48,382 nt of DNA from a virus: positions 1 to 48,382 of the IMG/VR virus record IMGVR_UViG_3300048591_000863. One strand, 5' to 3'. Below are positions 11,595-28,787 of this stretch, one piece after another. How positions within the stretch are numbered: the stretch's first letter is position 1; every line of letters starts with the position of its first letter. The notes under the pieces were generated by a model. The model saw nothing but the letters and a program-made list of their open reading frames with translations, did no database searches and had not been told where the DNA came from. A program made the position numbers and the translations under genes.

Positions 11595-12524
11595 CTACTC
11601 CTCGCCCGCCAGCCGCCGGTCGAGCTCGAGGTCCAACTCCTCCTCGGTCAGCTCGGCACCCAACTCCTCCGCCCGCTGGCGGATAGCCTCGGCGCCCTCG
11701 ATCTCGGTCGGGCCGTCGCTGAAGGGCCCTGCCGGCGGCTCCGGGACGATCTCGGCCTCGACGACGTCCTCGACCTGGGCGCCGGCGATCGCCATCTTCG
11801 CCCCGCCGCGCTCGGCCGCGGCCTGCAGGCGAGCCCGGAAGTCGGCCGCGCGATCGGTGGTGGCCTGCCCTGCCTCCCGTCCTGCCGCTGCGGCCAGCTC
11901 CTCCGGGGTCGGCTCCTGATCCGGAAGGTCGATGCCGGCGATGTTGTACATCCGCTTCAGGCAGGAGACGATGCACCGCGTCTCGAGCATATCGTCCGGG
12001 TGCGCCTTCCACGTCGGCTTGTTGTGCAGCGAGGCGAAGTCGGCCCAGCCGCGCAGAATCAGGACCGGTGGGCGCCCCTCGTGGTAGCCCACGCAATACG
12101 CACCCTTCCGCGCGCCGCGATCGAACCCTTCGACCTGGTGGAGCACCTTCACCTCGTCGCCCTCACGCTTCACGGCGAACTTGTCATTGGCGTAGACGAC
12201 GCCGCTGATGATGCCTTTGTACCCAGGCTCACGGCTCGCGACCTTGATGTAGCTGTCGCGGCCGGTGACGACGCGCAGCTTGCCCTGCATATCAGCGAGC
12301 CAGATCTCGCCCATCATCGGGTCGAGGTCGTAACGCGCGGCCGTGGCGAAGAAGATCGCCAGCTCCGCGATGCCGGCGCCTCGAGGCGCGACCGCCTTCT
12401 GGATCGCCGCGATCCTCGAGTCCTTCCAGATCTCCGGCGGCAGGTTCGCCGCCTCGCGGATGATCACGGCGGTCGTGCGCTTGCCGCCCTCGCCCTGCTC
12501 GATGTCCATCCCGTCACTCGCCAT
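11595..12524 (-). CDS. recT: RecT-family single-strand annealing protein (309 aa)
   Basis: The central region (about 40-200) carries the RecT/Redbeta family pattern: ELAIFFATAARYDLDPMMGEIW, then GKLRVVTGRDSYIKVASR, YKGIISGVVYANDKF and DDMLETRCIVSCLKRMYN. RecT anneals complementary single strands and promotes strand invasion during phage replication. The C-terminus (~70 residues) is acidic and disordered, a common feature. The ATG overlaps the exonuclease stop (TGATG), so the pair is translationally coupled. This is the usual exonuclease plus annealase module. Confidence 0.92.
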   Translation of the reverse strand: MASDGMDIEQGEGGKRTTAVIIREAANLPPEIWKDSRIAAIQKAVAPRGAGIAELAIFFATAARYDLDPMMGEIWLADMQGKLRVVTGRDSYIKVASREPGYKGIISGVVYANDKFAVKREGDEVKVLHQVEGFDRGARKGAYCVGYHEGRPPVLILRGWADFASLHNKPTWKAHPDDMLETRCIVSCLKRMYNIAGIDLPDQEPTPEELAAAAGREAGQATTDRAADFRARLQAAAERGGAKMAIAGAQVEDVVEAEIVPEPPAGPFSDGPTEIEGAEAIRQRAEELGAELTEEELDLELDRRLAGEE

Positions 12525-13552
12525 CAGGACTTGCCTCCAAGTGGAAAGACGCGCAGGGAGCGGCTTCCCGCGCCCAGCTTGTAGAACTTCTCGAGATCGA
12601 GGGCGCCGGCCGTCGTGACCTCAACGATCTCCTTGTCGCTCAGCCCCACGTCGCGCAGCGCCTTCGCTACCTTGGCGCGATCGAGCGGCTTCGAGGCCTC
12701 GAGCTCCTTCGGCTGGAACGTCCGCTTGCCGGCGCTCTGGGTGTAGTACACGCGGAAACCCGCGCCCTCGGCAATGCTCCCACCGCTCAGCGTAAAGAAG
12801 GACTGGATCTCCGCCTTGGCTTCATCGACCAGCGAGGCTGCCATCTGCTCGAGCTGCTTCGCTTCGTCCCACCGGGCCATCGCGGTGCGCCACGCCTCGG
12901 TGGCGATGGTGACGACCTTCCCCGGCTCCTCCGGCAGATTGACCGAGTCGGCCAGCTTCTCGAGCGGCGGCTCGACCTCCTTCACGACGAACTCCTGCCA
13001 CCAGAAGATCGCGAACTCGCGAATCGTCTTGATCGCGGCGTCGTCGCGCTGGACATCGAACTGCAGCATATCCCAGCGCTCCGCGTTGAGCGCCGCGAAC
13101 GCGGCCACCTGGTCGCCGGTGACGCCGAGGTAGTGCTGAATCTGGGTGTAGTAGTACTCCGGCACCCCCTTCCGCTTCATCTCGCCGAAACGGTTGAGCC
13201 CCGGCGCCTTCGCCTCGAGGATCCCGCGCGCTTCGGTGGTCGGGTCGAAGAAGGAGCCGTCGATGTTTGCCATCAGCTCCGGGTGGGCCTGGTCGCGCAG
13301 CGCGACGCCGACCTCCGTCACGATCCGGCCGGTGATCTGGCCGTACATCTGGCGGATGACGGGCTCGAGGAACCGGCCGCGGGCCATCGGGCCGAGCGGG
13401 GAATCGTTCTCAGCCTGGGGGAGTACTTTCGAGCGGAAGACGTCGACCGGGGTCCGGAACGGATCGAGTCCCATAATCGCCGCGATGTCGCTGCCGCCGA
13501 GGCCGGACCGGCGACCCTCGAGGAAGTCCGTCCGCTGGGATTGCGTCTGCAT
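12524..13552 (-). CDS. YqaJ/lambda Exo-family recombination exonuclease (342 aa)
   Basis: PD-(D/E)XK fold landmarks: GLGGSDIAAIMG near 17-28, Glu63 in GRFLEP, Asp98 in NIDGSF, E-A-K at 113-115, then YTQIQHYLGVTG at 135-146 with the Q-x-Q-H motif. These match the YqaJ viral recombinase family. It would resect 5' ends to give 3' single strands for RecT. The C-terminal third is helical with a coiled region. ATG preceded by ACGAGGA eight bases upstream; upstream leader contains a copy of the recurring CCCAGCGAGGAAG motif and a strong hairpin. Confidence 0.9.
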   Translation of the reverse strand: MQTQSQRTDFLEGRRSGLGGSDIAAIMGLDPFRTPVDVFRSKVLPQAENDSPLGPMARGRFLEPVIRQMYGQITGRIVTEVGVALRDQAHPELMANIDGSFFDPTTEARGILEAKAPGLNRFGEMKRKGVPEYYYTQIQHYLGVTGDQVAAFAALNAERWDMLQFDVQRDDAAIKTIREFAIFWWQEFVVKEVEPPLEKLADSVNLPEEPGKVVTIATEAWRTAMARWDEAKQLEQMAASLVDEAKAEIQSFFTLSGGSIAEGAGFRVYYTQSAGKRTFQPKELEASKPLDRAKVAKALRDVGLSDKEIVEVTTAGALDLEKFYKLGAGSRSLRVFPLGGKS

Positions 13553-15945: not shown

Positions 15946-16296
15946 CTACCTCCGGGGAATCGGGGTTTGGAGATCGTCGCAGGGAAGGCCCGCCCCTTCC
16001 GCCGCGTTGCGGTCCCCTCGGCATTGCAGCCGAGCGATGGGAACCAGCAGGTCGAGGATGCGATCGCTGCGCACCCGGTCGCTGACGATCGCCTGCGACA
16101 CCACGCCGAGCGAGTCGGTAATGGTGCGCGACGTCGTCTTCAGGGCGGCGAGGTCGTTGCGCGCGGTCACGATGCCCGCGCCGGCCACGATGATGACCAC
16201 GGCCACCCCGCCCACCACCTTCACCTGACCAAGCCACTCCGACGCCCGCTTCAGCGGGGACTCGTCGGCGCGCCGGCGCCGCGGGAGCTCACTCAC
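15946..16296 (-). CDS. Single-pass membrane protein of the lysis region (116 aa)
   Basis: Start GTG 16296, overlapping the giant gene's stop by eight bases. A basic N-terminus (RRRRADESPLKR) precedes one membrane segment (VVGGVAVVIIVAGAGIV), then a helical tail with Ser/Thr, and two Cys in the C-terminus. It may be an antiholin, second holin component or spanin; not resolved. Confidence 0.55.
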   Translation of the reverse strand: MSELPRRRRADESPLKRASEWLGQVKVVGGVAVVIIVAGAGIVTARNDLAALKTTSRTITDSLGVVSQAIVSDRVRSDRILDLLVPIARLQCRGDRNAAEGAGLPCDDLQTPIPRR

Positions 16297-19200
16297 GGAA
16301 GCCTCCCGCCGCCCGTTCGGCAACCTCCCGCATCCGGGAAAGGATCGCGTCGCGCTGTGCTGCCGTGCCGCCCTGCTGTTCGATCCGGCGCAGCTCGCCC
16401 CGCAGCTTCGTCATCTCAGTCATTCCTCGGCGGAGTGGTCCGGCCTGCCCCTCGCTGGCCGGTCGCATCGCGTCGATCATCGCGCGGTGCTTGTCGTAAT
16501 ATGCCTTCGCGGCGAGCGGCTGGCCCTCGTCTCGCCGCTTCTGCCACGCCCGGTAATGGCTCTCGGCCTCGGCCTGCAGCTCGTAGAACTGGCTGATGGA
16601 TTCCCCACCCTCGGCCGGCACCCGCGAGAAGAGCCGGCGCGCCATCGGCAGCTTCGTCGGCAGCGGGTCCGACGTGGCCGCACTCGGCCGCTTCAGCGGC
16701 TCCACGCCGGCGAGCTCACGCCCTTCCTTCACGGCCAGGTCGGTGACGTCCGTCACCATCTTGCCGACGCTGCCGGTGTGGCCCCGGTACATATGCTCGA
16801 CCTTGGCGGGGCTGATGCCGAAGATCCGGCCGATCTGAATCGCCGTCTCGCCGGTGCGCGGCGTGAACTGGTCCGCCGGCGGCAGGCCCTCGACGCCACG
16901 CGGCACGATCGGGCGATCGAAGAACTCGCTCCGGTTGGCCCGGACCTCGGCCCACGGCCGCGTTGCCGCCATCCACGCCAGCGGCTCCCAGCCGCCGAGC
17001 GGGTTGAGCTCCTCGGTCAGCCGGCCGACCGCCACCTTCGCGGCGTCCGGGTTCTCCTTGAGGATGCTCTCGAGGATCGACTGCGGGAGCGTCCCGAAGA
17101 TCGTCCCCATCAGCGGCGTCTTGGGCAGCAGGAAGACCATCGTCGGCTTCCCGGTGCCGTAGCCATCCCAGCCGGCGCTGCGATCGTTGCCGCGGATGAT
17201 GATCGGCCACGCCACCGTCTTCTTCCAGGTCTCGATCTCGTCCCAGAGCGGGTCGTCCTTCTGCAGCAGGTAGGTCGCGATCGAGAAGAGCGTGTAGGTG
17301 CCGAGCGCCGTCGCGTAGCTGGCGCGCATCCGATCGTACTTCCCTTCCCCGGGCATCAGGTCCGCCGCCGGCGTCGGCCGCGCGAACGTCGCGACGAACT
17401 TCGCCGAGCCGCCCATCGTCGCGCCGGCGAACGGCACAAAGCGATTCACGACGCGCACGACTGCGCCCATCTTGGCGAAGTCCTGCGTCACTTCGCGGCC
17501 GGCGATCCCCGCCGCCACCGCCGCGTCCTCCTCGCTCATTCCCTCGGCGATCTTGTCCTGGTACACGGCCTTGAACTCGCCAATGCGGTTGCCCATCTCA
17601 CCCAGCTCCGCGACCAGCCGCATCGCGTCGACCGGGTGCTTCACGACGTAGGTCAGTCGGCCAAGGGCTCCGCGCTCGCCGATCATCAGGCGCTGGAACT
17701 GCTTCTGCAGCTCCGAGCGGTCATACGTCACCATCCCGGAGCTGCCGGCGCCGGCCTGCACGAAGCGCTGGAACCACGCATCCTCCTGCAGCCACGACGA
17801 CACGCCGCGCGCCATCAAGACACCCGGGACGCGCGCGGTGACGTGCTTCGACCGGGAGAAGACGGCCGCGGCGAAGGTGTCGCGCAGCAGGTTGATCAAG
17901 CCGAACTCCGGAGTACTCGTGACGCCGAGGCGGAACATCCGCGCCGGCGCGCTCAGGATCTGCTCGAAGAGATGCAGCTCGCCCTGCGTCGTGCCGGTCA
18001 GGACCTTGTACAGCTCCGGGCTCTTCACCTGGACCCACTTCAGCTGCCCGTTGACGCGCACGGGGAAGACGCGGTCCGCCTTCTCGCTCCCGCGCGGGCT
18101 CGAGATCTTCTGGTAGATCGCCAGCTTCTCGGCGAGTACTCCGATGTCCGGCGCGATCGCTGCCGCCTCCGGATTGACGAAGTCGAGCTCCTCCTTCAGC
18201 CACGCCCGCAGCTCGCCCTTCGTCTCAACGCCCAGCGGCGTGATCCCGAGGTTTGCCAGCTGCCGGATGATGACCTCGAGGGGGAACTCGATCTTGATCT
18301 CCGGGGCCGGGACCTCCTGGATGAAGTGTCCGGATCCCTCCATCGCGTTCGGCGACTTGAACAGCGCGAACTCGGCGAGGGTCTGCACCGCCCGGTGGAT
18401 CCGGACGTCCATCAGCGTCCGGAACACGTCGGTCATCAGCGTCTCGCGCGGGTCGCGGATCTGCAGGTCGCTTCCCTTGATCCGCTTCAGCCCCGTCGAC
18501 GACACGCTGGCGCTCCCGCCGCGCGCGCCATCCTCGTGCTCGAGTACTCGCTCGAAGGAGATATAGAACTTGTTGGCCCGGGAGATCTTCTTGATCTCGT
18601 CCTTCGTGAGCTTCGTGCCGTAGCGGTAGACGAGCTCCGCCACCTTGTTCTCCCAGACGATCTCGCCGGCGGCGCGGAACTCCTGCTGCGCGGCCTCGTT
18701 GGTGAGCTCGAGCGCGTCCTTCACGTCGAAGCCGGAGTCGACGCCGCGCGCGTGGAGCTCGAGGACGCGCATCGCCACCAGATACCGGATGAAATCGCGG
18801 TGCCGCTCGACGGGAATAAGGTCGAACGCGCTCTTCAGCGGCCGGGTGATCCGCTTGATGCTGCCGATCTCCGGCGCTACCCAGCCGCGCTTGATGACGT
18901 CGACCGCCTGGTCGGCGACGCCCTTCGTCAGCTGCATAAGCCACGAGATGTTCTGGGCCGGCGAGAGCGCCTTCCCCTTCCGCGTGACGGCGAGGCGCAT
19001 GACTTCGCGCACCGCCTGATTGTCGTCGATGAACAGGTGCACCAGCTGGTTCGCCGTGGGCAGGCCGCGACGCTTGGCCTTCTCCGAGATCATCGACGCG
19101 AAGCGGCGCGCGGGGCTGCTCTCCTTGTGGCGCTTCAGCTCGAGCTGCGCAACCTTGAGCGCCTGGTAGAGCTCCGGCTCGCGCTTGAAGACCTCGTCCA

Positions 19201-22200
19201 TCACCTTCGAGAACTCCGGCGCCTTCTCGGCCAGCACATCCGGATCCGTCACGAAGAAGCCGACCCACTCCGCAATGCCCTCTTCGCCGTAGCCGGCTCC
19301 CGGCTTCCGCGCGCCGTAGAGGTCGGTGCCCATCTTGTTCAGCTCCTGCACGGCCTCCTTCGAGAGCTTGATCTTGCCGGCGAGGCTGCTCGGCGTCGTG
19401 CGCGTCGGCCAGCCGAGGAACTTCTTCGAGATGTAGTGGCCGGCCTCGTGCGCGGCCGTCTTCAGCTTGCCGCTATCCCACCGCACCAGCCGGATGTTCT
19501 CGAAGAAGAGATTGTACCAGCCCAGCGCCTTGCGCTGCGCGAACTTGCCGCGGCCGGACTCGCCCCAGATCCCCATCGCGTCGTAGAGGTTCTTCGCGAT
19601 CTGGCGCACCGACTGGACATCGGTGTCCTCCCGGCTGCGCTTCGCGCCGGTCAGCTTGCGCCAGGTGCGACCGGCCTCGGTCGCCTGATTGGCCGGGTTG
19701 AAGAGCGACTCCTGCCGATAGCCGCCCTCGTCGAGTGCGGTGTCTTCCTCGGCATCCTGCTGCAGCTGCTCCGCTTCGCTCAGCTCGAGCTCCGCCTGCT
19801 CGATCTCCCGGGTCGCCTCGGCCTCGAGGCGCTCGAGTACTTGCTGCCGCAGCTCGTCGCCGGTGGACTCGGCGCGGAGGCGCTTCAGCTCCTCGAGCGT
19901 CCCCTCCGCGTCCTCGATGACGTCCCGGATGAAATCCGACTGCAGCGGGTCGGCCATCGCCGCCGCCTCGTCGGGATTGGTGGCGTTGCCCAGCTCGTCA
20001 CGCCGGCGCGCGAACTCCTCGGCCGTGATCTTCCCGGCCTCGCGGTCGCCCTCGAGCTGGCGCTGCCGGCGCGCGATCTCGGCCTCGCGCTTCTGGGTCC
20101 GCTCCTGGCGGTTCCCCATCTCGTCGGCGCCGAACATCTGGCCCTGCCCGCCGCGGTCGACCTGGTCCATTCCGCCGAACAGGTCCGGCGAGAAGAGCGC
20201 GTCCTGATTCGGGTCGGTGGAGTCCCGGCTCTCCTCGTCTACGGCGCCTTCGGATCGAACCGCAGCCCCGCCTTCCCCGGCTTCCTCCGCAGCAGCCCCG
20301 CCTCGTCCAGCTTCCGGGTTTCCTCGATCGCTGCGTCCAGCGCCTCCTTCGGCAGCGGTGCGTTCGGCGAGGAGGGCTTCGGTGACGGCGTCTTGGATTT
20401 CACGAGCGACCCCCTTCGGCGACTCGCCCTGCGCAACGCGCCGAGCGGCCTCGGTGATAAGGCGCGCGACTTCGCCGCCTCGAGTGTACAGACGATCAAA
20501 CAGCTCCTCGACGGCCGCGCTGTCGGCCGCGCGCTGCGTGGCGGCTTCCTTGTCGATCTTCGTCCCGCCGGCGCCCTCGAGCGCCGTCGCGCGATCGCCC
20601 TTGGTAATGAACCCGAACAGCCGGCGATCCTTGGCGAGATTGCTCTTCAGCGCCGCGGCGACCTGCGCGCGCGGGACGTAGAGCCCGGTGCTCGACTCCT
20701 CTTCCCCGAAGAGCGAGTCCTGCGTGACGGTCTCGCTGCCGGCGACCTCGATCTGGCGCGCCACTTCCCGGACCTCGGCCTGCGTCATCCGCCCCTTGGC
20801 GCCGCGCACCACCTGCACGGCTTCGCGCTGGCGCTCCGGGTCGGTGATCATCTCGCCGATCGCCGCCGCGTGACCCTCGTCGAGCTTGCCGGTGGCGACC
20901 TGGGCAAAGAGATCCGGCGCCAGCTTCGACAGCGAGACGCCCTTCTTGGCGAGATCGCCGCGGATCGAGACGCCGCGGTTCTCGAGATCCTCCTGCGTCG
21001 CCCCGGTGTCCCGGAGGAACTTCGCGACGTCGGTCGCGGTGCCCCGGCCCTCGGCGATGTTGATGAAGGCGCCGGTCGCGCGCGCGGCCTCCGGCGTCGT
21101 GGCGAAGACGTAGCGCACGTTCACGCCGTCGACGCCGAGCCGCTTCGCCAGCTCGAGGCGGTGGTGGCCGTTGACGACGACCGTCTCGCCGCTCTCCGGG
21201 TCCTTCCAGACCGAGATGACGCCGGCGAGATCCTCGTTCCACGTCTTGACGCCCTTGAGCTCCTGGCCGGTGCCCGTCTCCGGGTCGACGTTGCTCTTGA
21301 ACTGCATCTGGTCCGGCCGGCTGACGATGTCGGCCGGGGCCATCCGCACGATCGACTTCGGCACGTCGTTGGCCGGGAGCTCCATCGGCTTGCTCTGCCG
21401 CTCCTTCGGCCGGTTCCGCTTGTACTCAGCGAGGCGCGCCGTCGCGTCGGTCCAGTTGCTCGCCACCGCCCCGCCGAGGCGGTTCGCGAAGCCGGACTCG
21501 CCGATCGGGTGATCCCCCATCAGCTCACGCGCCCGCGAGACCAGCTGCTCGCCGAGCCCCTTCGGCACCACGGCCGAGAACTCGTCCCCGCCGTGGCGGT
21601 ACAGGTTGCGCGGGTCGATGCCGAGCTCGTCCGCCGCCTGAGCGATCGCCGTCGACGCCCGCTGCAGCATCGCGTCCCCGGCCGGTTCGCCCTCGGTGTT
21701 GTTCCGGACGCCCAGCGCCTCGAGGTCCATCGCGACCACGTCGACGTCTTCCTTGTCCTGCTCGACGCGCTTCAGGTGGCCCTGCTGCGCCCGCTTGTTG
21801 CCCAGCCCGGTCAGGGGGTCGGTGTTCGCTTCCTTCTCGAGCGCGCGGCGCTCCTGCTCGAGCTGCTGGATCTTCTCCTGCGGCGTAATCGGCCCCTGGG
21901 CGCCCTCTGGGAGCTCCGGGGGCGCTTCTGGGGGTGCAACCTCTGGGGGCGGCTCGTGCGAGCCGGGAGGCACCTCCACGGCCGGCGGCACCGCGCCCGC
22001 GGCGGCGCTGGCCCGCTGCATCTCGTCGAGGGCGGCGCGCCGTTCGATGCTCTTCCCGGTCAGGGACTTCGCGACCCGGCTGGCGACCTCGGTCCCGGCG
22101 CTCACCGTGGCACCGCCGACCGCGCCCTGGATGGCGGCTTCCTTGCCCCGGCTCAACAGCTCCGAGACGCTGAAATCGTCTTCCGGCGTGGCGTAGCGGG

Positions 22201-23050
22201 TGCCGGCGTACTGGATCCCCTCCTGCAGCCCTTCCGTGATCCCCTCGGTCGCGACGTCGACGAGCGCGTTCTTGGCGATCGCCTTCGCGGAGTGGCGCAC
22301 GGCATCGGCCGTCAGGGTCTTCGAGAAGCGGCCGACCAGCTTCGAGGGGAGGTAGGCATCGAGCGCCGCCATCGGGATCCCGATCGCCGCGGCCGTCTCG
22401 TTGGCCGTCTCCTGGTCGACGCCGAGCTCGCCCATCTCCCGGCGCGCGTTGCCGGCGTTCTGCAGGTAGGAGGCGAGGAAGGCGCCCACGAGGGCGCCCG
22501 GAGGGCCACCGACCGCGAACCCTGCCGCGGCGCCGCCCAGCGACGGCGCGCTCGAGGCCGCGGCCGAGCCGGCGGTCCCGGCGACGAAGTCTCCGACGTC
22601 CCGCCCGCTCTTGATCTGGGAGGTCTCCGCCACCCGGGCAGGAGCGACCGACTCCTCGATCGCCTTGCCGCCGCGCTGCAGCAGCCGGCCGAGTGGCTCC
22701 GCGCCGGGAGCGGAATAGGCTTCCTGCCCAATCAGCTCCGCGGCCGAACCGATGTCCCGCATCGTCGAGCCGGTGCCCCGGACGATCGCCCTGGCACCCT
22801 CTGCCAAGAAATCGAGCACCCCCCGCGGCTTCGTCTCCGGCAGCTCGTCGTTCTCCGGCCGCGACGGGGTCCGCGCCCCGACTGCCGGCGTGAACGGCGA
22901 CACGGTCGGGTCGATCGGCTCCGGCTCAGGCGCCGCCGGTGCGGCCGCGGCCGGCTGGGTCGGCCGCATCGCCTTGTACGCGCGAAACGCCGCTTCCTCT
23001 TCGGAGCGGCGCCGCAGCCACTTCTGGTACTCGTCCTCGTCCGGAATCAC
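16289..23050 (-). CDS. Giant polyvalent virion-associated protein: GGDEF, ParB-like and zincin domains (2253 aa)
   Basis: Multi-domain protein. An N-terminal Ala/Gly-rich hydrophobic region (about 90-340, including GGAAAGFAVGGPPGALVGAF) could insert in membranes. A GGDEF domain (about 408-545) starts DPLTGLGNKR and has intact GGDEF at 487-491 preceded by Y-R-H. The usual DxDxFKxxND loop reads D-L-E-A-L-G-V-R-N-N, and the RxxD inhibitory site is absent. A ParB N-terminal-type domain (about 555-705) has GHHR at 628-631. Three QxxLF motifs lie at 777-781, 949-953 and 1113-1117. A zincin site HEAGH at 1201-1205 has a likely third ligand Glu1261. The C-terminal ~500 residues resemble the LPD38-type region of phage polyvalent proteins (FAKMGAVVRVVNRFVPFAG). 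Placed after two internal-protein candidates, it is probably packaged and ejected with DNA to act on the new host. Confidence 0.85.
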   Translation of the reverse strand: MIPDEDEYQKWLRRRSEEEAAFRAYKAMRPTQPAAAAPAAPEPEPIDPTVSPFTPAVGARTPSRPENDELPETKPRGVLDFLAEGARAIVRGTGSTMRDIGSAAELIGQEAYSAPGAEPLGRLLQRGGKAIEESVAPARVAETSQIKSGRDVGDFVAGTAGSAAASSAPSLGGAAAGFAVGGPPGALVGAFLASYLQNAGNARREMGELGVDQETANETAAAIGIPMAALDAYLPSKLVGRFSKTLTADAVRHSAKAIAKNALVDVATEGITEGLQEGIQYAGTRYATPEDDFSVSELLSRGKEAAIQGAVGGATVSAGTEVASRVAKSLTGKSIERRAALDEMQRASAAAGAVPPAVEVPPGSHEPPPEVAPPEAPPELPEGAQGPITPQEKIQQLEQERRALEKEANTDPLTGLGNKRAQQGHLKRVEQDKEDVDVVAMDLEALGVRNNTEGEPAGDAMLQRASTAIAQAADELGIDPRNLYRHGGDEFSAVVPKGLGEQLVSRARELMGDHPIGESGFANRLGGAVASNWTDATARLAEYKRNRPKERQSKPMELPANDVPKSIVRMAPADIVSRPDQMQFKSNVDPETGTGQELKGVKTWNEDLAGVISVWKDPESGETVVVNGHHRLELAKRLGVDGVNVRYVFATTPEAARATGAFINIAEGRGTATDVAKFLRDTGATQEDLENRGVSIRGDLAKKGVSLSKLAPDLFAQVATGKLDEGHAAAIGEMITDPERQREAVQVVRGAKGRMTQAEVREVARQIEVAGSETVTQDSLFGEEESSTGLYVPRAQVAAALKSNLAKDRRLFGFITKGDRATALEGAGGTKIDKEAATQRAADSAAVEELFDRLYTRGGEVARLITEAARRVAQGESPKGVAREIQDAVTEALLAERTAAEGGAGRSDRGNPEAGRGGAAAEEAGEGGAAVRSEGAVDEESRDSTDPNQDALFSPDLFGGMDQVDRGGQGQMFGADEMGNRQERTQKREAEIARRQRQLEGDREAGKITAEEFARRRDELGNATNPDEAAAMADPLQSDFIRDVIEDAEGTLEELKRLRAESTGDELRQQVLERLEAEATREIEQAELELSEAEQLQQDAEEDTALDEGGYRQESLFNPANQATEAGRTWRKLTGAKRSREDTDVQSVRQIAKNLYDAMGIWGESGRGKFAQRKALGWYNLFFENIRLVRWDSGKLKTAAHEAGHYISKKFLGWPTRTTPSSLAGKIKLSKEAVQELNKMGTDLYGARKPGAGYGEEGIAEWVGFFVTDPDVLAEKAPEFSKVMDEVFKREPELYQALKVAQLELKRHKESSPARRFASMISEKAKRRGLPTANQLVHLFIDDNQAVREVMRLAVTRKGKALSPAQNISWLMQLTKGVADQAVDVIKRGWVAPEIGSIKRITRPLKSAFDLIPVERHRDFIRYLVAMRVLELHARGVDSGFDVKDALELTNEAAQQEFRAAGEIVWENKVAELVYRYGTKLTKDEIKKISRANKFYISFERVLEHEDGARGGSASVSSTGLKRIKGSDLQIRDPRETLMTDVFRTLMDVRIHRAVQTLAEFALFKSPNAMEGSGHFIQEVPAPEIKIEFPLEVIIRQLANLGITPLGVETKGELRAWLKEELDFVNPEAAAIAPDIGVLAEKLAIYQKISSPRGSEKADRVFPVRVNGQLKWVQVKSPELYKVLTGTTQGELHLFEQILSAPARMFRLGVTSTPEFGLINLLRDTFAAAVFSRSKHVTARVPGVLMARGVSSWLQEDAWFQRFVQAGAGSSGMVTYDRSELQKQFQRLMIGERGALGRLTYVVKHPVDAMRLVAELGEMGNRIGEFKAVYQDKIAEGMSEEDAAVAAGIAGREVTQDFAKMGAVVRVVNRFVPFAGATMGGSAKFVATFARPTPAADLMPGEGKYDRMRASYATALGTYTLFSIATYLLQKDDPLWDEIETWKKTVAWPIIIRGNDRSAGWDGYGTGKPTMVFLLPKTPLMGTIFGTLPQSILESILKENPDAAKVAVGRLTEELNPLGGWEPLAWMAATRPWAEVRANRSEFFDRPIVPRGVEGLPPADQFTPRTGETAIQIGRIFGISPAKVEHMYRGHTGSVGKMVTDVTDLAVKEGRELAGVEPLKRPSAATSDPLPTKLPMARRLFSRVPAEGGESISQFYELQAEAESHYRAWQKRRDEGQPLAAKAYYDKHRAMIDAMRPASEGQAGPLRRGMTEMTKLRGELRRIEQQGGTAAQRDAILSRMREVAERAAGGFRE

Positions 23051-24198
23051 GGACGACGTCCGCCGGGGAACGCCGGGAAGATCGACGGCTTCGCCTGCGG
23101 CATCTGATAGCCCTGCGAGCTCAGGAACTCGCCGTACTGCGGGTCACGCTGCGCGCGCTGCAGCTGCTCCGGGCTGGGCGTCTTCGCGCCGCCCTGGTCG
23201 AACTTGGCCCCGGTGGTCCGGGCGAAGGCGCTGTCGCTCTGGGCGCGGTAGGTGCCGGCGCGCGTGTGCAACGTGCTGACCTCCTCGCGCGCCTGCTGGA
23301 TCGCGGCCTGATGGGCGTTGGCCTCGGCCTCGTCGTAGGGGATCGGCAGGCGCTGCAGGTCCCGCAGCCGGTTCTCGGCGTTGACGAGATCCTGCCGCGC
23401 GTTGTCCGTGGCCCGGTCGAGATCGGCCCGAGTCGGTGCACGGCCTCCCTCTTCGCGGTCAGCCTGGTTGCGCGCGCGCTGCGAGCCAAGAGCGCGGCTG
23501 ATGGCCGCGCCGGTGTCGATGTTGGTCTTCCGGCGATAGGCGCCCTCGAAACCGGGGCGATCGAGCTCCGGCACGACATCATCGAAGTTGACGTCGCGGT
23601 CGACGATCGCGCTGGCGGTGGGCGCGTCGCGACCCATTCCCTCGAGCTGGCCGATCCGGCGAGTGCGATCGCTCTCCGACTGTGCACGAGCTCGAGCGTC
23701 GCGCTGCTTGGTCAGCTCGTCCTGCAGCAGCGTCGCCATCCCGCCCGTCGAGCGGCGGTAGTCGCGCGCGCCGAGACGCGGGTGACGCGCTTCGTCGGCC
23801 GTGGGCACCTGGACGCCGGGATGCCGGCCGCTCGCCGTGGCGACGGGCCGCGGCGCCTCGAAGCCGGGGTCGATCTCGTCGCCCGGAAACGGACCCATCC
23901 GCGGCGGGCTGTACTCGTCGCCGTCCGGCATTTCCCCGACCTCGGTCGTCTCGGCGCTCTCCGAGTGGCCGCGGCCCCGGTTCAGGTCGAAGCCGGCCTC
24001 GATCGCGCCCTGGTCAATGCGCACGTCTTCCTGGTCGATGCGACGGTCGGCTTGGCCGGCCGTGCGCTCGAAATTGCTCTGCTCCTGCTTGTCCTTCCGC
24101 CGCTGCCGCTCCTGCCCGAGAAAGTCGGTGACGGCGCCCGCGAGCATCGAGCCCTGGCTCGGCGCGACATACGGGCGCTCGAAGTCGAATCGTGCCAT
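23047..24198 (-). CDS. Candidate internal virion/ejection protein (383 aa)
   Basis: Not assigned to a known family. Begins MARFDFERPYVAPSQGS then an Ala/Gly segment, followed by very long charged, largely disordered and helical sequence with many Asp, Arg, Gln repeats and few hydrophobic residues. Coiled-coil-like stretch near 275-330 (RATDNARQDLVNAENRLRDL). Overlaps the start of the giant gene by four bases and follows a similar protein at 24198; the trio occupies the place of podovirus ejection proteins. Confidence 0.6.
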   Translation of the reverse strand: MARFDFERPYVAPSQGSMLAGAVTDFLGQERQRRKDKQEQSNFERTAGQADRRIDQEDVRIDQGAIEAGFDLNRGRGHSESAETTEVGEMPDGDEYSPPRMGPFPGDEIDPGFEAPRPVATASGRHPGVQVPTADEARHPRLGARDYRRSTGGMATLLQDELTKQRDARARAQSESDRTRRIGQLEGMGRDAPTASAIVDRDVNFDDVVPELDRPGFEGAYRRKTNIDTGAAISRALGSQRARNQADREEGGRAPTRADLDRATDNARQDLVNAENRLRDLQRLPIPYDEAEANAHQAAIQQAREEVSTLHTRAGTYRAQSDSAFARTTGAKFDQGGAKTPSPEQLQRAQRDPQYGEFLSSQGYQMPQAKPSIFPAFPGGRRP

Positions 24199-25391
24199 TA
24201 TCGCTTCGCTCCGGCGTAGGTGGCGTAGGCATTGGCGCCGGCGCCCAGCAGGTCATAGAAGCCCTTCGATCGCTGCGCCTTCCGCTCTTCGTTGGCGTTC
24301 ACGTTCTGCGTCGCGCGGTTGACGTTGCCGGTCAGCAGGTCGAGGTAGTCGTTGCTGCTCTCCGCTTCGCGCTCCGCCGCGCGATCGGCGCGCTGGCCCC
24401 GCGCCCCGAGACCAACCTCGGCGCCGCGCTGCGTGTACGAGTCCTGAAACTCCGCGGCGTCGAGCCCCATCTTGTCGGCCGACGTCGCCTTGTCCAGATC
24501 GAACCCGGTGGCGTCACGCACGGCGTCGGCGCGCGTCTTGTCGATGGTGCCGGCGCGATCGAGCTGCAGCGAGCCGAGAGACTTCCCGCGCTCGAGCATA
24601 TTGCGGTCGATGCCCTCGGCCCGGTTGAACCGCAGGGTGCCGGCGTCGCTCAGCGCCTTCAGCCGGAAGTCCTTCCCCGACGTGAGCGCGTCCAGCTTCA
24701 TCCGATCCGCGGCCGTCTGGCTCTGGCTGGTGATCCCGGCTGCAGCGACCGACTGGCGCGCGATGTCGCTGGTCAGGCCGCGACCCAGCTCGGTAATGAC
24801 GTCGCCCTGGTCCTTGTCGAAGAGCCCGGAGTCCGCGCGTCCCGCGCCGGCAGACTTCGCGCGGAGCGTGTCGAGCGCGCGCCCGCTCTGCACCATGAAA
24901 TCACTCGTGGCGCCGCGCGCGTAATTCTCGACGGCCGCCTGCGCATCGAAGTCGCGCGCCGTGAAGTCGACGCCGCTTTCGTTGTCGGCGAACTCCTTCA
25001 GATCCGACCCCGGATCGAGGCCGGCCAGCTCGTCGCTGCCGTAGTCCTGCAGCTCCTGGAAGCCGACACCGCGCGTCTCGGCCGCGTCCATGTTCCGCAG
25101 CTGCGTCGTGTCGACCGCGTCGGTGCGCGTCGGCGAGAACCCGGCCGTGTTGGTCGGCTGCATCCCCTCCACGCGGTCGATCGCCCCGCCGAATTCGGAG
25201 TCGCGCTGCTGATAGTCGAGCCCGCGCTGCTCCATCTTCAGGCGAGAGCGGCCGAACTCGTCGAAGAGGATCTTGTCCATCTGCGCCTGACGCGCCTGGT
25301 CCTGCAGCTCCTTCTTCTTGTTCCCGCCACCGCCGAAGAGCTTCTTCGCCAGCCCGATGCCGGCACCGATTGCCGCGACTGGAATAGCCAT
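24198..25391 (-). CDS. Candidate internal virion/ejection protein with N-terminal glycine-rich helix (397 aa)
   Basis: The N-terminus MAIPVAAIGAGIGLAKKLFG is a short hydrophobic, glycine-rich segment that could insert into membrane, then KKKELQDQARQAQMDK. The rest is a long charged helical rod with repeating Asp/Arg/Gln residues (DRVEGMQPTNTAGFSP; RNMLERGKSLGSLQL). Ejection proteins of podoviruses commonly look like this, but no direct family match is claimed. ATG 25391, with GTG 25394 also possible; GGAGG upstream. Confidence 0.6.
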   Translation of the reverse strand: MAIPVAAIGAGIGLAKKLFGGGGNKKKELQDQARQAQMDKILFDEFGRSRLKMEQRGLDYQQRDSEFGGAIDRVEGMQPTNTAGFSPTRTDAVDTTQLRNMDAAETRGVGFQELQDYGSDELAGLDPGSDLKEFADNESGVDFTARDFDAQAAVENYARGATSDFMVQSGRALDTLRAKSAGAGRADSGLFDKDQGDVITELGRGLTSDIARQSVAAAGITSQSQTAADRMKLDALTSGKDFRLKALSDAGTLRFNRAEGIDRNMLERGKSLGSLQLDRAGTIDKTRADAVRDATGFDLDKATSADKMGLDAAEFQDSYTQRGAEVGLGARGQRADRAAEREAESSNDYLDLLTGNVNRATQNVNANEERKAQRSKGFYDLLGAGANAYATYAGAKR

Positions 25392-25573
25392 CACGCCCCT
25401 CCCGTGTACCAGAGCAGGACGACGTAGTTGCCGCCCTCAACCTGAAACTGCTTGTCCTGCAGGTCGATCTCGCCGGCCGTCTCCAACCACGCATTGACCG
25501 CCGTGGTCAGCAGCGCCGCGCTCGCTGCCTCGATGACCTGCACCTGGATAACTCGTGCCTTGGGTGCGCTCAC
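25391..25573 (-). CDS. Small alpha/beta protein (60 aa)
   Basis: Strand (RVIQVQVIEA), helix (SAALLTTAVNAWLETAG), strand (FQVEGGNYVVLLWYTG). The layout recalls small Cse60/YqzC-like proteins, but similarity is only at pattern level. GTG start overlaps the stop of the preceding tail gene. Role in virion assembly not known. Confidence 0.55.
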   Translation of the reverse strand: MSAPKARVIQVQVIEAASAALLTTAVNAWLETAGEIDLQDKQFQVEGGNYVVLLWYTGGA

Positions 25574-26088
25574 CCTTCGCTCCGCTTCTGGTCTGGGGAT
25601 TCGTCGTGCTCGATCGCGACACCGTCAAAAATCAAGTCACCGAGGCCGAGCCCTCCGACGCTCTCAATCTGCAACCGAAGACGGGTTCCGACCACCGCGT
25701 TCCGGCTGAGCTCCTCGTCCGCCGGCCCGAGAATCAGCCGCAGGAGCGGGATCCGGAAGCTCCTCGTGACCCGGCCACCGGTCGGCGCCGCCAAGGTGAT
25801 CTCGATCGGCAGGGTCTGCACCGAGCCACCGATCCGGGCGATGGTCTCTTCGTCTTCGTCGACGAGCGGGGTAAAGCGCAGCGTGACGGCCATCGTCCAG
25901 GTGAGGGTGACGATCGCCGTCCGAAAGACGGAAACCCGGGTGCCATTCCCGGGAGAGAGCGGGTTCGAGATCGCGAAGACGTCGTAATCCGACCCGCCAT
26001 CATCGGCGCCGTCCGCCAGCTCCCAGATCAACGCGCCGGGAGTGGCGGTAGCACCTGCTTGGCCGAGGAGCAGCGCGGAGCCTTGCAT
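25570..26088 (-). CDS. Tail-associated hypothetical protein (172 aa)
   Basis: Not recognised. Beta-rich throughout (ALIWELADGADD; TRVSVFRTAIVTLTWTMAVTL; SFRIPLLRLILGPADEEL), with an acidic C-terminus. Directly downstream of the nozzle-like protein and coupled to it (TGATG). Probably a virion component by context. Confidence 0.55.
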   Translation of the reverse strand: MQGSALLLGQAGATATPGALIWELADGADDGGSDYDVFAISNPLSPGNGTRVSVFRTAIVTLTWTMAVTLRFTPLVDEDEETIARIGGSVQTLPIEITLAAPTGGRVTRSFRIPLLRLILGPADEELSRNAVVGTRLRLQIESVGGLGLGDLIFDGVAIEHDESPDQKRSEG

Positions 26089-28787
26089 CAGGAAAGCGTC
26101 ACCGTGTCTTCGGTCGGCAGGGAGTAGCGCGGGGTGCCACCACCAAGGTAGTGCAGGACCCGGACGCGGATGGTCGCCCCGATGCCGGCCAGGGCCGGGA
26201 ACCCGGGCTGCGGGCCGGTCAGGAGGTCATCCGGGCCGCTCTTGGCGAACTGCGGGCCGAGCGACTTCGCCAGGGGATCGACGGCGTCCTCCCATTGCAG
26301 CACGAGGTTATCCGTGCCCCACGCTTCGTTGTCCCACGCCACCCCGATCTCGGCGACCCCGGGCGTCCCCTGCACCACGACGAGGTTCGTCGGCCCAGGC
26401 GGCAGCATCGGGATCGTCGCTGTCACGCCGCTGCTGATTTTGCGCTGGCCTCCGGAGGTCAGCAGCCGGTAGAGCGCGACGGCCTCGGTCGGCACGACGG
26501 CCGCGGTCGAGATCGGTGCGTAGAGCGGGCCGTTGTCCCGGATGGTCAGCGACATCGAGGTCGCCGCGTCGCTGGGCTCGATGGTCACGGCCGGCGCGGT
26601 CGGGCTCTGGTATTCCGCCAGCGTCGAGAGCCCACCGCCGGCCGCGTCGAAGAGCGCGTCGACGAGCTGGTTCGCCACCCACTCGCCATCCTCGCCCGTC
26701 ACCGGCGACGGCGCGGCCGTGTTGGTCAACGTGATCTGCTCGACTGCAGTCCAGGGCCCCGCGTCATCCACGCCGAACGCCGTCTCGAGGAATCTCGCCC
26801 GCAGGTACGTCACGGACGCCAGCGAGATCGGCGAGCTCACGTTCTGCTTCACCGTGTAGCTGGCACTCTGGAACTGAGTCGCCCACCCGGTCGTGCCATC
26901 GGGCGAGGTCTGCACTTCGAGCTTGTCGCCGGTGTTGGCGGCGATCCACAACTGAAAGACGCTGGTGGTCCCGGTCTGGACGACGGTCAGGACGCTTGGC
27001 GTGATCGACGGCCCGATGCGCACCGCCACGACGTTGCTATACGCGCTCTCCTCGGTGCCGAGCACCGCGCGCAGCCGGTAGTACTTCGTCAGCGTCAGGA
27101 GCGCGTCGGCCGTGGCGTGTGCAATCGTGCGCGGCGCATAGGGCGCGGCCACCGTCTTCACGTTGGTCCAGCCGCCGACTCCGTCGTCGCTCTGCTCGAG
27201 CTCGAAGCCGAGGCCGGTTTCCGGCAGCGTGAACGAGAACAGGATCTGGTGCGTCGACGCGCCGATGCGCGACCACACGCCAGCCAGCGCGGAGGGGGCG
27301 CCGCTACTGGTGACGAGAGTCGTCTTCGAGCCCGCGGCGGTCGGCGCGTCCCAATCGTCCGGATCCGTCGACGTGTAGCCAGGGGTCGCGATCCCGCCCT
27401 TCGTGAAGCGGATCGCCAGGGCGTAGTCGGACAGCGCCGGGACGCCGTTGAGGGTGCGGCTCTGCGTCCCGCCGGACGCCGCCACGCTGTCGAGGAGCGT
27501 CCACCCGCCGCCGACCAGCCCGCCGAAGATTTGCACGGTCTCGCCGGCGCCCAGCGCGTTGTTCGTCCAGTCGAGGTCGACCGTCCGCCCGGTGCCCGAC
27601 TGGCCGGTGTCCGTGGCGGAGAGTGCCGAGGCGTAGGCCGTGATCGTGGCGCCGATCGTCTGGGCGCCTTCGATGATCAAGCCGGCACAGTAGATCGCCT
27701 GCGAGATCTCGAAATAGCTCCATCGGATGACGCCCTCTTCGCGGAGCGACATCGCATAGCAGCGCGTAACGGTCTGCGCCGGATCCAGCACGGGGAAGCC
27801 GAAGATCGCGAGGCGCTCGAGCGGCTCGTACACCACCCAGCCGTACTCGTCTTCGCCGGCGGTCGCGAGACCTTCCGGGTCGGGCCCGTCGAGCTCGAGC
27901 GGAAGCGACAGGTCGACACTCCGCCCGCCCGACGTGACGCGCGGCCCCTGCTCACCCCACGCATACGACTGGTCGCCGATCGTGATCGCCAGCCGGTCCG
28001 CCACGCAGCCGTGGACCTCCTCGAGCGGCAACACGCCGAAGTCGAGGAACGACGTGCCGACCAGCTTGAAGCGCCCGCCCTTCTTGTAGATGACCAGCAC
28101 GTCGCCGGCCTTGCCAACGGACGTGATCGCTTCATCGCGAACGCCGGCCAGGAAGTAGTGCTGCTTGTTCATCGTGAGCGGGTCGCCGCTCAGCGAGAAG
28201 CGGAAGTACTCCGGCCGGTTCGGTTCGGCCGCGGTCCCGAAGCCGTAGCCCACCAGGTACTGCATATAGGCGTAGACGCCCCGGAAGTAGACCGGAGCGT
28301 CGCCGGCACCATCGAAGTTGCCGAGGTAGTCGAGGAGCTGCGCGCCGACCGTCGCTTCAGGGTCGAAGTAGATCGTGCGCGCGCGGTAGTTGTAGAGCGG
28401 CTCCGAGTGCGCGAGGAACAGCTTCGCGTAGCTCTCGGCCGCGGTGACGCGAGGAAGGGGAGCACCGACCGGCAGCGTCGCCCAATCGCCGATGTAGACG
28501 GGAGTGCCGCCGGTGCCGTCCGTGCGCCAGACCGACAAGATCCGCGTCGTGCGGTTGTAGCCGATCGAGACGCCGCCCTTGATATACCGGAACGCGAAGA
28601 TGCCGACGACATCGGTGCAGCCATCGAGCGGCTCGCCGGTGTCCGGCACGACCGCGCCCCCGCGCGCCATCAGCTTGTAGTCGCGGGGGATCAGGTTGCG
28701 CAGGTCCTGAAACGTCGACGCATCGACGCGGAAGGAACCGGTCGCGCGGTCGATGGCCTGCCCGAACGTCAGCGGCGTCAGCGTCAT
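26088..28787 (-). CDS. Nozzle-like beta-propeller tail protein with fibronectin-like modules (899 aa)
   Basis: The N-terminal ~370 residues look like a repeating beta-sheet protein with Trp/Tyr-rich blades (MARGGAVVPDTGEPLDG; YFRFSLSGDPLTMNKQHYFL; FGFPVLDPAQTV), as in podovirus tail nozzles or P22-type DNA stabilisation proteins. C-terminal ~500 residues contain several Ig/fibronectin-type units (SGAPSALAGVWSRIGAS; PPGPTNLVVVQGTPGVAEIGV). Gene order between internal proteins and fibres supports a tail-tip role. No signal peptide. Sequence identity to any named nozzle protein is not claimed. Confidence 0.6.
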   Translation of the reverse strand: MTLTPLTFGQAIDRATGSFRVDASTFQDLRNLIPRDYKLMARGGAVVPDTGEPLDGCTDVVGIFAFRYIKGGVSIGYNRTTRILSVWRTDGTGGTPVYIGDWATLPVGAPLPRVTAAESYAKLFLAHSEPLYNYRARTIYFDPEATVGAQLLDYLGNFDGAGDAPVYFRGVYAYMQYLVGYGFGTAAEPNRPEYFRFSLSGDPLTMNKQHYFLAGVRDEAITSVGKAGDVLVIYKKGGRFKLVGTSFLDFGVLPLEEVHGCVADRLAITIGDQSYAWGEQGPRVTSGGRSVDLSLPLELDGPDPEGLATAGEDEYGWVVYEPLERLAIFGFPVLDPAQTVTRCYAMSLREEGVIRWSYFEISQAIYCAGLIIEGAQTIGATITAYASALSATDTGQSGTGRTVDLDWTNNALGAGETVQIFGGLVGGGWTLLDSVAASGGTQSRTLNGVPALSDYALAIRFTKGGIATPGYTSTDPDDWDAPTAAGSKTTLVTSSGAPSALAGVWSRIGASTHQILFSFTLPETGLGFELEQSDDGVGGWTNVKTVAAPYAPRTIAHATADALLTLTKYYRLRAVLGTEESAYSNVVAVRIGPSITPSVLTVVQTGTTSVFQLWIAANTGDKLEVQTSPDGTTGWATQFQSASYTVKQNVSSPISLASVTYLRARFLETAFGVDDAGPWTAVEQITLTNTAAPSPVTGEDGEWVANQLVDALFDAAGGGLSTLAEYQSPTAPAVTIEPSDAATSMSLTIRDNGPLYAPISTAAVVPTEAVALYRLLTSGGQRKISSGVTATIPMLPPGPTNLVVVQGTPGVAEIGVAWDNEAWGTDNLVLQWEDAVDPLAKSLGPQFAKSGPDDLLTGPQPGFPALAGIGATIRVRVLHYLGGGTPRYSLPTEDTVTLS

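Follow-up and report, generated by a model that had tools for sequence, protein, structure and literature searches.

A compact GGDEF domain in a giant phage protein of probable ejection type

Described GGDEF proteins of phages and bacteria

The occurrence of GGDEF domains in the polyvalent proteins of phages was reported by Iyer et al. in 2017, who considered them 'not very widespread', found the LPD38 domain to be of phage type only, and proposed or described both processing by zincin peptidases and packaging of such proteins into the virion (PMC5512222). The concept of a GGDEF domain in a polyvalent protein is thus not new; the present analysis contributes a count of giant homologues and data on how far their active sites are conserved, on their phage-only grouping and on their synteny. 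A literature search for an experimental test of a GGDEF domain in an ejected protein found none.

In the active site of the bacterial enzyme DgcR, D174, E217 and E218 bind the metal ions, N182 and D191 contact the guanine, K289 and R293 the phosphates, and main-chain amides of the metal/base loop join the C-terminal Lys/Arg pair in binding the terminal phosphates; coiled-coil stalks of diguanylate cyclases are described in the same study (PMC8041772). The Hypr GGDEF enzymes that make cGAMP carry a serine at the D344 selectivity position, and the paper on GacA scored motifs of the [G/A/S]G type as active (PMC6456294). Panoptes is an example of an immune system whose effector can be kept silent by cyclic dinucleotides (PMC12657218).

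The giant gene and its neighbourhood

The window analysed here – the whole of the viral record IMGVR_UViG_3300048591_000863, 48,382 bases with 68% GC – encodes a protein of 2253 residues (Table 1). GC contents of 0.70/0.47/0.92 at the three codon positions led us to accept its minus-strand frame as real and coding. A plus-strand ORF of 2206 residues that runs antisense to it (16487-23107) was rejected as a GC-rich shadow rather than a gene, since the coding pattern of GC lies on the minus frame and the plus ORF fails the same filter; we attribute the open antisense frame to high GC content and codon use.

Table 1. Features of the giant gene and its neighbours (window coordinates)
Feature	Position	Strand	Basis or remark
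Giant protein, 2253 aa, very probably polyvalent and of ejection type	16289..23050	-	GTG start; 4-base overlap with the end of the upstream gene
LPD38, residues 1934-2109	16724..17251	-	Pfam PF18857, E=1.6e-23
EGIAE, second half of zincin signature, residues 1257-1261	19268..19282	-	E, G, A and E invariant in 7 homologues
HEAGH zincin motif, residues 1201-1205	19436..19450	-	H/E/H invariant in 7 homologues
ParB/DdrB-like region, residues 536-871	20438..21445	-	phrog_21, E=7e-58; Pfam ParB HTH below cut-off only
GGDEF domain, residues 408-548	21407..21829	-	Pfam, AlphaFold2, Foldseek
K544, matching DgcR K289, the gamma-phosphate lysine	21419..21421	-	Alignment; PMC8041772
GGDEF motif, residues 487-491	21578..21592	-	Sequence and alignment
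Metal/guanine loop, D442-x4-G447-x2-N450-x8-D459	21674..21727	-	Alignment of 105 domains
Helix, residues 390-408, entering the DxLT turn, like a diguanylate cyclase coiled-coil stalk	21827..21883	-	Helix in the model; putative role in dimerisation
383-aa protein between internal-virion-like gene and giant gene	23047..24198	-	Position only
398-aa protein at internal virion protein position	24198..25394	-	HTVC034P synteny; L129 and L132 have homologues before the giant gene
899-aa protein at tail tubular B/stabilization protein position	26088..28787	-	Synteny; homologues in L126, L129, L130, L132

Several unrelated domains, including an LPD, are combined in this single chain: LPD38, GGDEF and the ParB-like region recognized by phrog_21. 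The 2253-aa protein gave no match to the Pfam ddrB-ParB family (PF18763), a match that is present downstream of the GGDEF domain in the giant protein L098. The seven homologues compared over the zincin signature HExxH...EGxAE are divergent; the region itself has no Pfam match, and its AlphaFold2 model is of low confidence (pLDDT 50). A weak match to phrog_2206 (E=1e-4, residues 86-472) was not accepted as evidence for a virion RNA polymerase.

In the window, the giant gene follows genes for the 899-aa protein, for proteins of 172 and 60 aa, for the 398-aa internal-virion-like protein and for the 383-aa protein, an order that may be set beside that of phage HTVC034P and podovirus ct8d5349, namely tail tubular B/stabilization protein, GNAT, internal virion protein B-like protein, hypothetical protein, giant LPD38 protein and tail fibre. 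Four further contigs, L126 (the contig of L094), L129, L130 and L132, hold a GGDEF giant at the equivalent place and share varying subsets of the head genes, the 899-aa gene and other neighbours with the window. The giant gene is encoded beside virion genes, between the internal-virion-like gene and genes of replication and recombination; farther upstream, and running in the same direction, are those for terminase, portal and major head protein. A RecT-like annealing protein and a RecE/YqaJ-like exonuclease are found directly downstream of the virion module (11595-13552, minus strand).

The LPD38 domain, the zincin motif and the gene position fit a virion-carried polyvalent protein, and we regard the giant as very probably belonging to this ejection type. 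The first-pass annotation had called it a probably ejected protein, a description with which these features agree; delivery itself we infer.

The GGDEF domain and its phage relatives

Residues 408 to 548 form what is virtually certain to be a genuine GGDEF domain. The Pfam family GGDEF (PF00990) matched residues 408-506 (E=2.8e-9 and 37.4 bits, with 41.7 bits in another search, against a cut-off of 23.8), a match that ends at position 102 of the 161 in the profile because the C-terminal part is compact: E490 and K544 are 54 residues apart, as against 71 for their counterparts in DgcR, judged by residue numbers (PMC8041772). TIGR00254 scored 40.3 bits with the isolated domain and 34.5 with the whole protein at a cut-off of 37.4, several PHROGs families overlap the domain at about residues 393-512, and phmmer with the single sequence against the PDB matched only GGDEF or GGDEF-kind proteins (best E=3e-6). 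An AlphaFold2 model of residues 385-560, calculated from an input of 31 phage rows, reached a pLDDT of 94.5 and a pTM of 0.86 and shows the GGDEF topology minus its last strand. As evidenced by Foldseek against the PDB, its top matches – WspR, SadC, DgcB, PleD and others – are all diguanylate cyclases (best E=8.6e-10); the GGDEF protein of Bordetella phage CN1 is one of the few viral fold matches. The GGDEF domain that the first-pass annotation had placed at residues ~408-545 on the letters alone is thereby confirmed in family and fold, with boundaries correct to within a few residues. The CD-NTase affiliation that it had suggested checking did not emerge, as PADLOC defence family profiles, those for CD-NTase and mCpol included, gave no match to the domain at E<=0.1. 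Across the window, a search for an EAL or PilZ partner returned none.

The metal ligands D442, D489 and E490 are all present, as are the guanine contacts N450 and D459, and the spacings from D to N (+8) and from N to D (+9) equal those in DgcR. R485-H486 precede the GGDEF motif and DPLTGLGN begins at residue 411. The lysine of the loop is replaced by G447, the RxxD I-site is missing, with I478 and R481 at its two positions, and the D336-type residue is an asparagine. Towards the C-terminus K544 is kept, but P548 replaces the arginine of the KxxxR motif at K+4, with R545, R547 and R551 close by. These residues agree with the earlier reading of the sequence, which had listed the full motif with its preceding R-x, the DPLTGLGN start, the D and N of the metal/base loop, and the loss of both the loop lysine and the inhibitory site; a loss of metal ligands, which it had named as a refuting observation, is not seen. 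Given the phosphate contacts seen in DgcR (PMC8041772), and as the same change from K to G occurs in other phage domains, we do not read the loss of the loop lysine as a strong sign of decay. The Hypr-type serine is absent, and because D459 is kept at this Ser/Asp position (PMC6456294) a product of the cGAMP type is less likely and c-di-GMP is favoured; of the c-di-GMP or related dinucleotide envisaged at first, the former is the likelier.

Of six scans of viral contigs, four yielded GGDEF loci, and filtering of these left 105 distinct domains, of which 51 belong to ORFs of 800 aa or more (window included) and 35 to ORFs below 230 aa. At least 45 distinct giant ORFs of 1200 aa or more (1200-4836 aa) in viral contigs carry a GGDEF-type domain, and GGDEF giants are therefore more numerous than the 2017 paper suggested. 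The viral contigs L104, L114, L115, L118 and L161-L193 are among those with such giants. Matches to fecal 'Bacteriophage sp.' were left out; the one inspected, L005, proved to be a membrane cyclase of sensor type with 502 aa, its sequence probably bacterial. A scan of viral contigs with the whole 2253-aa protein gave no relative, and an LPD38-based viral scan gave 80 loci, many of them short fragments, with a GGDEF domain in none.

For the active-site positions we use the PleD numbers D327, K332, N335, D344, R366 and K442 as labels. In the 51 domains from ORFs of at least 800 aa, the metal Asp is conserved in 49, the N335-type Asn in all 51, the D344-type Asp in 42, the motif Asp in 51, the motif Glu in 49 and the K442-type lysine in 46. 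The first glycine of the motif is a serine in 25/51 and R366 a histidine in 24/51, and the loop position holds K in 44, G in four (window included) and H in three; the K-to-G change recurs in one of the 35 small phage domains. According to these counts, where the window departs from the consensus other domains vary too, and the invariant positions are intact in it. Note that SGDEF with a histidine for R366 is a variant of about half of the phage giants, and that histidine occupies the loop-lysine position in 20/35 of the small domains. The near-invariance of the catalytic residues argues for a working enzyme over a relic, and judged from sequence the domain is probably catalytically active. 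RxxD is missing in 45/45 giants of at least 1200 aa and also in 74/80 cellular domains, a sample biased by its selection for likeness to the query. The loss of the I-site, being common in cellular relatives too, is thus not distinctive and says little; the escape from feedback proposed in the first-pass annotation is possible but unremarkable.

A tree calculated by a quick method from the domains of 45 giants, 35 small phage proteins and 40 cellular proteins placed 40/45 giants and eight small phage domains in one group free of cellular rows, with weak support (SH-aLRT 86), and the window with L098, L094, L130, L129 and L132, again weakly (SH-aLRT 80). This suggests a lineage held by phages, as opposed to frequent recent acquisition from bacteria. 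A set of stand-alone phage GGDEF proteins of 150-200 aa with the histidine at the loop-lysine position (L108, L116, L117, L119-L122, L125 and others) occupies a separate part of the tree. Further GGDEF giants bear ART, InPase, Eco57I, helicase, RadC or ddrB-ParB domains and are classic polyvalent proteins. A 3687-aa ORF (L115:5142-16202) joins GGDEF to an inorganic pyrophosphatase, an Eco57I-type methylase and a helicase, a suggestive combination given that a cyclase releases the pyrophosphate on which a pyrophosphatase acts.

Possible roles and comparison with known systems

On balance we lean towards an active diguanylate cyclase that is delivered at infection. Starting from the computed domain, fold, ligand residues, conservation and gene context, this would be a compact, GTP-binding GGDEF enzyme, lacking I-site and sensor, inside an LPD38-type polyvalent protein that would be made late, packed into the virion near the internal or ejection proteins and brought into the cell with the phage DNA, where its zincin-like part may cleave it. 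GGDEF catalysis requires two domains facing each other, and two copies might pair via the helical stalk and convert host GTP to c-di-GMP free of feedback; the limits on the domain would be pairing and GTP, since it has neither sensor nor I-site. An early shift of the host could follow – loss of motility, a changed surface or receptor, superinfection exclusion, or disturbed nucleotide-based immunity – and the outcome of c-di-GMP would depend on the host. Counting against this reading are G447, the asparagine at the D336-type position, the KxxxR arginine out of register, the absent last strand, the setting within a 2253-aa chain that makes pairing uncertain, the lack of EAL or PilZ in the window, and a zincin region that has no confident fold. 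A literature search for proteomic data on LPD38 proteins in virions returned nothing.

The same losses of loop lysine, KxxxR arginine and last strand, together with the drift of the active site in the serine- and histidine-bearing half of the giants, would also suit a catalytically weak or dead fold that the ejection protein retains for structure or for binding GTP or c-di-GMP. We consider this a serious candidate but unlikely, since the window retains the metal D/D/E and the guanine N/D and these hardly vary across the family, and the degenerate nucleotide-binding module offered as an equal alternative in the first-pass annotation is accordingly disfavoured. Binding-only GGDEF domains usually lose the GGDEF motif or retain the I-site; here the motif is kept and the I-site lost, the reverse of that pattern. 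It is rather improbable that the giant stays out of the virion and is produced in the late or lysogenic cell, its domain serving there as an auxiliary diguanylate cyclase of the ordinary kind: the LPD38 domain, the zincin motif and the location of the gene match the phage-type polyvalent proteins described as virion cargo (PMC5512222), although small stand-alone GGDEF genes do lie at non-virion positions in phages (Bordetella CN2, Pseudomonas Epa38) and Bordetella LK3 lysogens form more biofilm, a finding about lysogeny and not about the enzyme (PMC8471281).

The target might also be immunity rather than lifestyle, with a counter-immune enzyme whose cyclic dinucleotide feeds or confuses host nucleotide sensing, for example by silencing a Panoptes-type effector. 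Iyer et al. propose interference with host nucleotide signals (PMC5512222), an mCpol enzyme that shares the palm fold makes the cyclic dinucleotides which keep Panoptes effectors silent (PMC12657218), and predicted conflict domains (ART, InPase, Eco57I, helicase) accompany the domain in related giants. As no PADLOC defence family matches the domain in sequence, and the base contacts predict 3',3'-c-di-GMP, which is not known to act on Panoptes-type effectors, we hold this to be quite doubtful. More speculative still, and in our view very improbable, is its extension to diverse phages that share their own compact GGDEF lineage in ejected giants, where a cyclic dinucleotide released at entry would pre-empt nucleotide-sensing immunity, for instance as a decoy ligand that silences effectors. 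Should the domain be both active and delivered, as in the explanation we prefer, a phage could act on a global second messenger of bacteria ahead of any transcription of its own genes. The giant homologues with intact catalytic residues make the suggestion of 2017 testable, also in culturable relatives.

With PleD, WspR, DgcB and DgcR the window domain shares the fold, the DxLT turn, the metal Asp, the GGDEF motif, the guanine N/D, the C-terminal lysine and the stalk helix; it differs from them in the absence of I-site, last strand, arginine at K+4 and sensory domain, in the glycine at the loop lysine, in its compact C-terminal half and in its setting within a phage protein. The palm domains of mCpol/OptS (Panoptes) and Cas10 have a related fold (PMC12657218) but, unlike the window domain, nearly no GGDEF motif. 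The stand-alone GGDEF proteins of phages (Bordetella CN1/CN2, Pseudomonas Yuavirus and many IMG/VR contigs) are compact like the window domain, but are single-domain proteins of 150-230 aa, some with AGDEF or SGDEF, and where annotated lie outside the virion module. In two siphoviruses, the annotated 'diguanylate cyclase' (L003:5944-6399, Bordetella; L004:5838-6299, Pseudomonas) has AGDEF, and its gene is found outside the virion module, in a stretch of small genes close to exonuclease genes. The LPD38 giants of podoviruses (Pelagibacter HTVC034P, Vibrio VvAW1, Thalassomonas BA3) are 22-28% identical to the window protein over the C-terminal ~800 residues, and HTVC034P has the same gene order. 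Closest in concept are the GGDEF polyvalent proteins of Iyer et al., such as WP_004096050.1 of Acetonema longum, likewise giant multidomain phage proteins, which combine GGDEF with a zincin peptidase, only putative in the window protein, and other conflict domains and for which the same role was proposed; the window protein is distinguished from these by its LPD38 type, its ParB-like region and its membership in a largely phage-only group of GGDEF domains.
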